Assembly (NCBI RefSeq): GCF_033958435.1
Contig: NC_134158.1
Coordinates: 10,294,337 to 10,358,336 of the forward strand
Direction: 5' to 3'
Length of the DNA: 64,000 nt
DNA from: Carettochelys insculpta
Taxonomy: Eukaryota; Chordata; Testudines; Carettochelyidae
Of this stretch, positions 39,101 to 53,785 are shown one piece after another. The notes beneath the pieces were generated by a model. The model was not told the DNA's origin, did no database searches, and saw only the letters and a list, made by a program, of their open reading frames with translations. Position numbers and translations under genes: made by a program. How positions within the stretch are numbered: position 1 is the stretch's first letter; each line of letters begins with the position of its first letter.

Positions 39101-42100
39101 CACCTCACAGCCCCCAGGGGCTCCTTGCTCCCGCCCCACAGCCCCCAGGGGTTCCTTGCTCCCACCTCACAGCTCCTGCCCCACAGCCCCCAGGGGCTCC
39201 TTGCTCCCACCTCACAGCTCCTGCCCCCAGCCCCCCTGGGGCCCCTCACTCCCATCCCACAGCCCCCCGGTGACCCTCGCTCCCAACCCACAACCCCTCA
39301 GTGTCCGTTGTTCCCGCGCCACAGCCTCCCATGGCCCCTCACTCCTGCCCCACAGCCCCCCGGCACACCTCATTCCTGCCCCACAGCCCCTCTCCCACAG
39401 ACCCCCAGTGCCCCTCCCTCCCGACCCGCAGCCCCCGTCTCTCGCGGCAGGAGGACGGAGACGGTGCAGAAGCTGTGTCCGGGGGGGCAGCTGCCTTTCC
39501 TGATGTACGGGAACGAGGTTCGCACCGACACCAACAAGATCGAGGAGTTCCTGGAGGAGGTTCTCTGCCCCCCCAAGTACGTGCCAGCAGCCCGTGGCAG
39601 GGAGTTCCACTGGCCACGAGACCTCTAGGGGGTGTTCAGGGTCAGGGCAGCTGGGGGCTCCAGGCTGGGCAGTGTGAGGTGGGGGGGGCCTGGGCTGGAC
39701 AGAAGTAGGAGGGGTCAGGTTTGGGGTCCGAGGTGTGTGCGGGGGCCTTAGGCCAGTGGTGCAAGGGGGGGCCCTGGGCTGGGCAGTGTTGGGGGTCGGG
39801 CTGGGCAGGGTGAGGGGGCCAGGTCGGGCAGCGTTGGGGGGCCAGGCTGGGCTGGGCAGAGTGAGGGGGTCGGGCTGGGCAGTGTCGGGGGGCTGAGCTG
39901 GGCAGCGTGAGGGGTCCGGGTCGGGCAGTGTTGGGGGGCCAGGCTGGGCTGGGCAGGGTGAAGGGGTCGGGCTGGCCAGTGGGGGGCGGCTCCGGGATGG
40001 GCAGTTGGAAACCTCCTGCCGGCCTCTCCCCCCAGGTTCCCCCGCTTGGCTGCCCGGAACCCCGAGTCCAACACGGCCGGCCTGGACGTCTTCTCCAAGT
40101 TCTCTGCCTACATCAAGAACTCCAACCCGGCCCAGGACCCCGGTGAGGGGCATCCCCTGGATGGATGGGGTGGGGGTGGGGGGAATCTCCTCTCCTCATT
40201 GGCTGCCCCAGCCCGGACTCTGCCTTTCCATTGGCTGCCTCCTGGTCTGAGCCCCAGCAACCCCTAACGCCACCTTGGCACTCATTGGTTGGCTTCCTTC
40301 TTCCCTTGGTTATCATTGGTTGCCTTTTAGCTCCCATAATCCTCTCCCCCATTTCCATTGGCTGCCCCTCTGTACTCTCTTGTGACTGGCTGGCTGCCGT
40401 GCCCTGGATTCCCATTGGTGGCTGTTTGCCCCGTTCTGTTGATCGTCCCTTCTGATAGGCTGCTCTTCATCTCTGCTCTGTTCTCATTGGCTGTCTCTCC
40501 CGGTTTGTCCTGCCTCCTCCCTTCCGATTGGCTGTCCTGCCTTGGCCTCCGGCTCTGATTGGCTGCCGCGCAGTGCTGGAGAAGGGGCTGCTGAAGGCAC
40601 TGAAGGTGCTGGATGATTACCTGGTGACGCCGCTGCCGGACGAGGTGGACGAGACGAGCGCGGAGGACGAGGGCCGCTCGCAGCGCAAGTTCCTAGATGG
40701 GGACGAGCTGACGCTGGCCGACTGCAACCTGCTGCCCAAGCTGCACATCCTGCAGGTGGGTCGGGGCCGGGCACCACCAGGGGGCACCACTGAGAGCCCC
40801 AGCCCCAGCGCAGTGCTGGGAACGGCCACCAGGGGGCGCCAGCGGGAGCCCCTGCCCCAGCGAAGTGCCGGCAATGGCCACCAGGGGGCGCTAGCGGGAG
40901 CCCCAGCCCCAACGCAGTTCCGGGAATGGCCACCAGGGAGCGCCAGCGTGAGCCCCAGCCCCAGCGAAGTGCTGGCAATGGCCACCAGGGGCCGCTAGCG
41001 GGAGCCCCAGCCCCAGCGCAGTCCCGGGAATGGCCATCGGGGGACGCCAGCCGGAGCCCGGGCCCCAGCGCAGTGCCGGAAATGGCCACCAGGGGGAACC
41101 GGCCGGAGCCCCAGCGCAGTGGCGGGAGTGGCCACCACGGGGCGCCAGTGGGAGCCCAAGCCCCAGCGCAGTGCCGGGAATGGCCATAGGGGGGCGCCAG
41201 GCGGAGCCCCAGCCCCAGCCCCAGCGCAGTGCCGGGAGCGGCCACCAGGGGCGCCAGCGGGAACCCCAGCCCCAGCACAGTGCCGGAATGGCCACCAGGG
41301 GGCGCCAGGCGGAGCCCCAGCAGAGTGCCAGGAATGGCCACCAGGGGGGCACCAGCGGGAGCCCCAGCCCCATTGCAGTGCCGGGAATGGCCACCAGGGG
41401 GGCACCAGCGGGAGCCCCAGCCCCATTGCACTGCCAGGAGTGGCCACCAGGGGGTGCTAGCGGGAGCCCCAGCCCCAACGCAGTTCCGGGAATGGCCACC
41501 AGGGAGCGCCAGCATGAGCCCCAGCCCCAGCGAAGTGCCGGCAATGGCCACCAGGGGGCGCCAGCGGGAGCCCCAGCCCCAGCGCAGTGCCGGTAATGGC
41601 CTCCAGGGGGCGCTAGCAGGAGCCCCAGCCCCAGCGCAGTGCCGGGAATGGCCACCGGGGGCGCCAGCGGGATCCCCAGCCCCAGCGCAGTGCCGGGAAT
41701 GGCCACCGGGGGCGCCAGCGGGATCCCCAGCCCCAGCGCAGTGCCAGCAACGGCCACAAGGGGGCGTCAGGCGGAGCCCCAGCGCAGTCCCGGGAGCGGC
41801 CACCAGATGGCGCTAGGCGGAGCCCCAGCCCCAGCGCAGTGCCAGCAATGGCCACAAGGGGGCGCCAGCCTGAGCCCCAGCAGAGTGCCAGGAATGGCCA
41901 CCAGGGGCGCCAGCGGGAACCCCAGCGCAGTGCCGGTAATGGCCTCCAGGGGGCGCTAGAAGAAGCCCCAGCCCCAGCGCAGTGCCGGGAATGGCCAGAG
42001 GGGGGCGCCAGCGGGAGACCCAGCCCCAGCGCAGTGCCGGGAATGGCCGTAGGGGGGCGCCAGGCGGAGCCCTAGCCCCAGCCCCAGCCCCAGCCCCAGC

Positions 42101-53785: not shown

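Follow-up and report, generated by a model that had tools for sequence, protein, structure and literature searches.

A very long minisatellite of same-direction CTCF-site units, plausibly a one-way cohesin barrier, in the last intron of turtle CLIC1

Introduction

Is the tandem repeat in the last intron of CLIC1 in the turtle Carettochelys insculpta a bank of working CTCF sites, or a repeat that happens to carry their motif? The question arises from a 64,000-nucleotide stretch of contig NC_134158.1 (assembly GCF_033958435.1), here called the window, which corresponds to C22:10294337-10358336 of a 2.18-Gb genome and lies on a contig of 25 Mb; positions without a contig name are counted from its first nucleotide. 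An initial annotation, made from the letters of the sequence, had proposed about 250 same-direction CTCF-motif units at 40776..53273, in an intron of CLIC1 within MHC class III, as an exceptionally dense one-directional CTCF platform. We read the array as a CTCF-site minisatellite that is probably bound and plausibly acts as a one-way cohesin barrier, and from the matches and spacings described here we put the probability of this reading at roughly 55%.

Results

Extent and orientation of the array

Tandem Repeats Finder, run on the window, delimits the array at 40774-53275, with a period of 52 and 248.3 copies. Chaining the best CTCF-matrix positions along the array, which is how units are called throughout, gives 247 units from 40771 to 53256, in agreement with the number and extent first proposed. 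The usual spacing is 52 bp and not the 51 bp or so of the initial annotation: of the 246 unit-to-unit intervals, 141 measure 52 bp, 50 measure 46 bp and 20 measure 51 bp. Its units stand head to tail and fall within the 10-100 bp by which minisatellites, or variable number tandem repeats (VNTRs), are recognized. The array is therefore a very long minisatellite; the earlier term "megasatellite" is loose for a 52-bp unit.

40771..53275, + strand: 247 CTCF-site units in tandem, most often 52 bp apart, every site on + (Tandem Repeats Finder and matrix chaining)

The CTCF matrix was a reconstruction of JASPAR MA0139.1, and a uniform background applies unless stated. At p<1e-4 it predicts 226 sites on the + strand of the array and 0 on the - strand, which bears out the claim that all units face right; 202 sites pass at 1e-6 and 175 at 1e-7. 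With the window's own background of 70% GC, the corresponding counts in the array are 215, 151 and 112. Dinucleotide-shuffled versions of the array (n=50, both strands) yield a mean of 24.5 sites at 1e-4 (maximum 35) and of 0.5 at 1e-6. Matrix matches are found at 18.07/kb in the array versus 0.93/kb (5 matches in 5,366 bp) in 13 other tandem arrays of the window, each at least 300 bp long and taken from 150 of the 157 Tandem Repeats Finder rows.

Individual cores are more varied than a hand-read stretch, with 12 perfect cores in 20 units, had led one to expect. The perfect 12-base core CCACCAGGGGGC occurs in 28 of the 247 units, 167 are within one mismatch of it and 209 within two, and the exact 19-base best consensus TGGCCACCAGGGGGCGCTA, thought to be held by some units, has a single copy in the array (40875..40893). 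The 21 units that fail at p<1e-4 comprise 17 with a one-base deletion in the core, three with a common double substitution and one that is otherwise changed. Outside the array, 20 of the 22 CTCF-matrix sites at p<1e-5 in the window and its flanks (104 kb; two sites overlap) are also on the + strand, a bias that may have its source in base skew.

Three other readings of the repeat were rejected. A G-quadruplex platform finds no footing in a G-run pattern that covers 0 bp of the + strand and 108 bp of the C strand of the array, which is proportionally less than it covers elsewhere in the window. A structured RNA scaffold was set aside on a 294-nt stretch that folds no better than its shuffles (z = +1.0), and Rfam gave no match in the window at gathering thresholds. 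A coding repeat is contradicted by the stop codons that interrupt each of its six frames (18 to 47 times) and by its position between splice sites; the longest open stretch, on the minus strand, has 917 codons. Copies of the unit elsewhere in the window amount to short matches only, mostly of low complexity.

The upstream motif and its spacing

CTCF is reported to bind its core through zinc fingers 3-7 and an upstream motif through fingers 9-11, across a linker that is usually 5 bp (PMC12885311) or, as given in PMC9004084, 5 or 6 bp. Core and upstream motif together are described as a two-part motif of 33/34 bp (PMC3368268), which is common to lamprey, chicken and human (PMC5504073). The optimal upstream (U) site in vitro is given as TGCAATCCC (PMC10287918), and enhancer blocking by the IL3 CTCF site is reported to need the upstream motif (PMC12885311).

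In the array units, a 9-mer of the type CGCAGT(G/C)CC is located 5 bp ahead of the 19-base core. A mixed U consensus, composed after the array was seen, is matched in at least 8 of 9 bases at spacer 5 by 166 of the 247 units, and 162 units pass both the core and the U tests. At the other spacers from 0 to 11, the same consensus is found ten times at spacer 4, once at spacer 7 and not at all at the remainder; the spacer-4 cases are 10 units in which a one-base deletion moves the called core by one. Elsewhere in the window, chance matches to this consensus occur at 0.0005 per position. The strict TGCAATCCC is present at spacer 5 within three mismatches in 173 of the 247 units and within two in 54, as opposed to 11 and 0 at all other spacers from 0 to 11. 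The spacer count carries an ambiguity of 1 bp, as papers begin the core at slightly different bases. A representative unit is laid out as follows:

40861..40869, + strand: position of U/M2 (zinc fingers 9-11), 7 of 9 bases fitting the mixed consensus
40870..40874, + strand: 5-bp spacer between U and core
40875..40893, + strand: core, the single exact TGGCCACCAGGGGGCGCTA

The spacing was calibrated with a genome-wide search for exact TGCARTNCC followed within 3-15 bp by CCASNAGRKGGC, which occurs 64 times versus 0 for the reversed control. Five of these matches lie in the CLIC1 array, all with 8 bp to the CCA (that is, spacer 5). The other 59 represent 56 loci, some of them alike by eye (dispersed families) and hence not all independent, at which the gap to the CCA is 8 bp in 27, 9 bp in 14 and any other value in at most four. 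This gap preference, together with the empty reversed control, indicates that CTCF sites of this genome use the two-part motif. With the sharing of that motif by lamprey, chicken and human, it also lends indirect support to its recognition by the turtle's own CTCF. Several of the two-part matches (C1:251821640, C2:77905212, C8:23490890, C14:33662901 and others) are alike by eye around TGCAGTTCCCACTCC(A/G)TCCAG and look like a dispersed repeat that carries a CTCF site. A downstream element, GAGCCA, is reported 2 bp past the core (PMC9004084); the units have GGGAGCCCC after the core, which resembles it only in part and whose GAG seems to lie about 3 bp beyond the published spacing; the core boundary of that paper is ambiguous.

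Occupancy of neighboring units

Both members pass the matrix in 210 of the 246 adjacent unit pairs, and 162 of the 246 are passing pairs with a linker of 30-40 bp; the commonest linker is 32 bp (137 pairs), with 26 bp in 40. CTCF motif pairs with 30-40 bp linkers are reported to give double DNase footprints, and regions bound by CTCF and BORIS (CTCFL) to give double shifts in electrophoretic mobility shift assays in 12 of 12 tested (PMC4562119). It is therefore conceivable that the array matters in testis, as a germline platform on which CTCFL and CTCF share clustered sites, and not as a somatic loop anchor. In favor of this, paired sites 30-40 bp apart are described as the class co-bound by CTCF and BORIS (PMC4562119), and 171 human repeats, mostly simple repeats or VNTRs, are reported as co-bound (PMC5007689). 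We consider such a germline role improbable as the main function.

Methylation at position C2 of the core is described as the chief block to CTCF binding (PMC10325916). A CpG is present at C2 in only 3 of the 247 units, and at C12 in 223. Intact units without a CpG at C2 should thus bind CTCF, with no need of selection.

Growth of the array

The 247 units comprise 95 distinct sequences, and 222 of them fall within runs of at least five near-identical units that recur elsewhere in the array.

43993..45658, + strand: block of 33 units, with a second copy from 50867 on that differs by 3 edits in 1,666 bp
40771..41633, + strand: 5' edge, the first 17 units, in no run of at least five near-identical units

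The block pair reads as a recent segmental duplication inside the array, and the pattern of repeats is what unequal exchange usually leaves behind, with one edge older than the rest. The almost unchanged recurrence of blocks as large as 33 units could also reflect an assembly error, with blocks collapsed or duplicated and the copy number consequently wrong. The block copies nevertheless differ by a few edits and their lags vary (48, 68, 88 and 136 units), as in real unequal exchange, and the contig is 25 Mb long; we regard such an error as extremely improbable.

CTCF-site arrays elsewhere in the genome

A narrow genome-wide search for two CCACNAGGKGGC cores 34-46 bp apart has 81 matches, of which 68 are forward and 13 reverse, versus 0 and 3 for the reversed-pattern control. 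Sixty-six are in CLIC1 and 15 at four other places, each a tandem array or array group:

C22:12.92 Mb (C22b): CTCF-core array, 49 bp x 7.6
C26:17.321-17.328 Mb: CTCF-core array group, 55 bp, four blocks of 5 to 24 copies
C9:2.29 Mb: CTCF-core array, 68 bp x 14.5
C6:124.99 Mb: CTCF-core array, 39 bp x 10.3

A broad search, for CCASNAGRKGGC twice with a gap of 20-50, gives 1,231 matches versus 8 for the reversed motif; two shuffled controls give 239 (1 reversed) and 53 (12 reversed), all these pair counts owing most of their size to a few large arrays. Tandem arrays of GC-rich 12-mers are common in this genome, and an excess of arrays specific to CTCF is suggested by the pair counts but not proved by the locus counts. 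The single-core pattern occurs 26,632 times genome-wide versus 3,647 for the reversed motif, which starts with CG and is CpG-depleted. With so many single cores, the suggestion that the array acts as a CTCF sink is unlikely to hold.

In a spacer test, the strict U motif was scored at spacers 0-30 in 13 arrays, namely CLIC1, the four from the narrow search (with one block of the four on C26) and eight more, hand-chosen from the listed places and not random, with isolated pairs left out. Its sum over the 13 arrays at spacer 5 is 50.6 versus 29.4 +/- 4.0 for random spacers, a value reached by 0 of 200,000 draws. Without CLIC1, 2 of 200,000 draws reach the sum at spacer 5; without CLIC1 and L039, 11 do, and without CLIC1, L039 and L044, 260. 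Spacer 5 ranks first of 31 in five arrays (CLIC1, C22b, C26b, L041 and L044) and second in L039, on a good match of 5.5 of 9. Linkers are unrelated between arrays except for L039/L044 (z 4.5), all other pairs having z<=4. As the U motif at spacer 5 is a feature outside the pair-search pattern, we conclude from this positional signal that a good part of the inspected arrays, CLIC1 included, probably grew from genuine two-part CTCF sites. The functional spacing kept in several arrays likewise suggests that working CTCF sites, and not chance look-alikes, were amplified.

Units of the inspected arrays are 39-68 bp long, and CLIC1 intron 5 holds the longest single array among them. The idea of a dense one-directional platform is accordingly reinforced by an upstream motif at the right spacing, which had gone unremarked, and has to be revised in that the array is not a one-off within its genome. 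As a tentative extension, it could be speculated that turtle genomes repeatedly convert working two-part CTCF sites into minisatellites with a unit of about one CTCF footprint, each forming a one-way boundary with copy number as the determinant of its strength.

Some of these arrays have features of their own. L044 (C2:5711000-5712400) is a CTCF-site array with a 44-bp unit; of its 27 sites, which occupy 1.4 kb, 21 have upstream TGCAGCCCC at spacer 5, and blocks resembling it recur at C2:5.67-5.72 Mb, over about 45 kb in steps of about 6 kb. The 55-bp CTCF-site family of C26, 82-89 kb from the contig end (L030 4084-4371 and 4412-5399; L031 627-1959), has one block on the + strand and three on the - strand, and thus two banks that face each other, side by side. 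Most of the CTCF-site arrays inspected are located no more than a few Mb from the end of a contig (C1, C2, C3, C6, C9 and C26; for example at 379.5-381 of 383.1 Mb on C1), which may be a general property of VNTRs, since some shuffled-motif arrays are also placed there.

Genomic setting

The placement of the array in an intron of CLIC1, within MHC class III, is confirmed by the splice sites, by the match to CLIC1 protein and by the neighboring genes.

40573..40755, + strand: CLIC1 exon 5, coding, which ends 15 bp before the first core
40756..53623, + strand: CLIC1 intron 5, the last, 12.9 kb and about 97% array (splice sites and spliced-protein alignment)
53624..53783, + strand: CLIC1 exon 6 as far as the stop codon

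A GT donor at 40756 follows CTGCAG, and exon 6 begins at 53624 after CCACAG. The joined protein from exons 2-6 in the window is identical to Pelodiscus sinensis CLIC1 at 214 of 228 residues (94%), and its alignment to turtle CLIC1 runs without a gap over the exon 5/6 junction. Among the best 120 of 1,495 matches, the next CLIC1 proteins are those of mole-rat (89%) and gecko (88%), with alligator (81%) and ostrich (78%) also present. From the exons read, the gene order is LSM2 (+), VARS1 (+), SAPCD1 (-), CLIC1 (+, first exon at about 33104) and DDAH2 (+). Pfam matched five of 10 short exons (two tRNA-synthetase, one SAPC2-type and two CLIC/GST), and the other five, including those of LSM2, DDAH2 and CLIC1 exon 6, were unmatched. 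By eye, the flanks hold a POU5F-like gene on the left and ABHD16A-like and LY6-like genes on the right. MSH5 and VWA7, which we take to lie between VARS1 and CLIC1 in human, were not noticed by eye at 24.4-33 kb, the interval between these two genes, where only SAPCD1 (minus) was seen and no targeted search was made.

An intron filled by the array, with its first core 15 bp past exon 5, could point to a regulator of CLIC1 RNA, in which bound CTCF slows the polymerase past exon 5 and alters splicing or polyadenylation of the last exon. CTCF has reportedly been linked to alternative splicing. Exons 5 and 6, however, encode a continuous conserved protein, and we hold this role to be very improbable.

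Three further sequence features were noted. Nine ATTGG motifs (CCAAT-box, NF-Y-like), all on +, are packed into a 360-bp part of CLIC1 intron 4 that closely precedes exon 5 (40198-40558), and of the 15 copies of ATTGGYTG in the window, where 2.6 would be expected, 8 fall in the same interval. A dispersed minisatellite family of about 70 bp with the core CCCAGGAGTCCTGGCT extends over 1445-60800 of the window (23 exact cores on +, 10 on -), some of its copies in short tandem arrays. Finally, contig C22 has many C2H2 zinc-finger matches at 0.7-9.5 Mb among the matches listed, and the near-identical scores of some of them suggest recent copies.

Discussion

We propose that one complete two-part CTCF site was amplified in tandem within the last intron of turtle CLIC1, and that the array would have grown by unequal exchange of unit blocks. 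CTCF would bind many units at once, with its N-terminal, cohesin-stopping side to the right, toward exon 6 and DDAH2. Loop extrusion is reported to take place on the side of the N-terminus and finger 3, which lies downstream of the core (PMC12885311); by this orientation rule, and with all sites on +, cohesin from the right would be stopped at the array. Leftward-extruding cohesin from the DDAH2/ABHD16A/LY6 side would meet up to 226 stops in series, the leak past which should be very small, so that the array could form a nearly one-way barrier and a left loop anchor. It may also shield the left-hand genes from enhancers on the right, and the strength of the barrier should vary with copy number. 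We consider binding of the array by CTCF quite likely, and give about an even chance to multi-site occupancy, cohesin blocking and any effect on expression taken together.

The surroundings of the array offer candidates for partner sites. Divergent CTCF pairs are found at many domain borders, and a divergent, outward-facing layout would result here from a left-facing site that sits to the left of the right-facing array and whose exact upstream motif stands at a 4-bp spacer (two-part match C22:10333055-10333082):

38715..38746, - strand: single predicted CTCF site, left-facing, 2 kb left of the array, matrix score 18.6 (matrix and two-part match)

On the right, the nearest left-facing two-part site in the exact-motif search is at C22:10504989, 157 kb away and facing the array, and is a candidate loop partner.

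The array could instead be a neutral VNTR, whose founder unit held a CTCF site by chance in a GC-rich region that breeds minisatellites, and which is now methylated or covered by nucleosomes and mostly unbound. We judge this unlikely, though it deserves serious weight, and a number of observations count against a bound barrier. According to Tandem Repeats Finder, the window holds dozens of further, unrelated VNTRs. The core shows no special conservation: distinct units differ there with a mean variability of 0.101, as compared with 0.090 for the upstream motif, 0.158 for the spacer and 0.082 for the tail; the eight high-information core positions are not significantly less variable than the other positions (0.073 vs 0.102, p 0.41); core information and variability are not significantly correlated (Spearman -0.26, p 0.28); and the substitutions seen in the core depart little from random in severity, being slightly milder (p 0.083 over all kinds, 0.025 over the frequent ones). 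These comparisons do not establish purifying selection on the core. CpG decay is also evident, with transitions at 0.078 for CpG versus 0.024 for non-CpG C/G, and from this roughly threefold excess the array has probably been at least partly methylated in the germline.

The genome-wide comparison has its own counterweights. A shuffled 12-mer forms arrays too (the 239 pairs of the first shuffle), and a hand count of array loci on C1-C3 gives about 20 for CTCF among the matches listed, about 20 for the first shuffle and 2 for the second. Amplification specific to CTCF is therefore unsupported by locus, because one shuffled motif equals it on these contigs. In L038, L045 and L040, spacer 5 comes second or third, but the matches there are weak (3.8, 2.7 and 3.1 of 9); C9, C6, L042 and L043 have no sign of U at spacer 5 (ranks 20-29 of 31). 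As to the barrier itself, no left-facing site at p<1e-5 is present in the 40 kb to the right of the array (10.7 kb of window and 30 kb of flank), and the array lies inside CLIC1 with its motifs oriented along CLIC1 transcription. Polymerase may displace CTCF inside a transcribed gene.

Set against the neutral account, random founders would not be expected to carry an upstream motif at the functional spacing, as the CLIC1 array and several others do. The 1,231 CTCF pairs also stand against 239, 53, 12, 8 and 1 for the shuffled and reversed patterns, although a few large arrays dominate these counts. Furthermore, affinity does not depend on selection, and intact sites without a CpG at C2 should bind whether or not the core has been conserved. 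Our preference therefore remains with a CTCF-site minisatellite that is probably bound and plausibly a barrier.

Work on CTCF usually deals with single sites or small clusters, and the scaling of strength with number has mostly been modelled or artificially built; AkitaV2, for example, is reported to predict insulation that depends on the number of sites per cluster (PMC11828424). With up to 226 sites facing one way, and probably with alleles of different length, the array would represent the far end of this scaling curve in a normal animal. The functional spacing kept in several arrays also raises the question of whether CTCF occupancy itself promotes tandem duplication. If such arrays are a recurrent class, boundary strength would evolve fast through repeat expansion, and the amplification may itself be driven by binding, through stalled cohesin, replication or breaks where CTCF is bound.

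Among the papers listed from the open-licence literature of PubMed Central, we found no description of the CLIC1 array or of turtle CTCF-site minisatellites. CTCF-bound short tandem repeats as such are already known, from DXPas34 and the 171 human repeats. DXPas34, the minisatellite of mouse Tsix, is about 1 kb long and much shorter than the CLIC1 array, and human TERRA promoters have subtelomeric 61-bp repeats with CTCF sites, which are short-unit like the array. DXPas34 resembles it as a CpG-rich repeat with short units, described as having a CTCF site in each 34-bp monomer (PMC3149622), and differs from it in its place in the X-inactivation center and in unit sequence; homology is not claimed. 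This precedent and the human repeats (PMC5007689) overturn the earlier statement that known tandem CTCF arrays have far longer units. The human CTCF/BORIS-bound VNTRs are also tandem, with a CTCF signature and clustered binding that has been shown (PMC5007689), whereas the sites of the CLIC1 array are predicted from sequence. As described there, the human VNTRs duplicate a shorter signature and cluster their sites by stagger, while most CLIC1 units have the whole 33-bp two-part site.

Mouse Dxz4 is likewise a bank of many CTCF motifs in tandem orientation, and its inversion is reported to reveal that motif orientation sets the direction of contacts (PMC5899087). In the account of the same paper, DXZ4/Dxz4 is X-linked with kilobase units, 14 motifs in the mouse and an estimated 10-100 copies in human, where two motif sets have opposite orientation. 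The CLIC1 array, in contrast, has 52-bp units and 226 predicted sites within 12.5 kb, all in one orientation. The paired CTCF sites termed 2xCTS are reported as same-strand motifs with a 30-40 bp linker (PMC4562119), as in 162 of the 246 CLIC1 pairs, but they are pairs where CLIC1 has an array of hundreds. Beside these systems, the CLIC1 array is new in how many sites it has, in that most units hold a complete two-part site, in its single orientation and in its location within MHC class III; also new is the hint that such arrays recur as a class in one genome.

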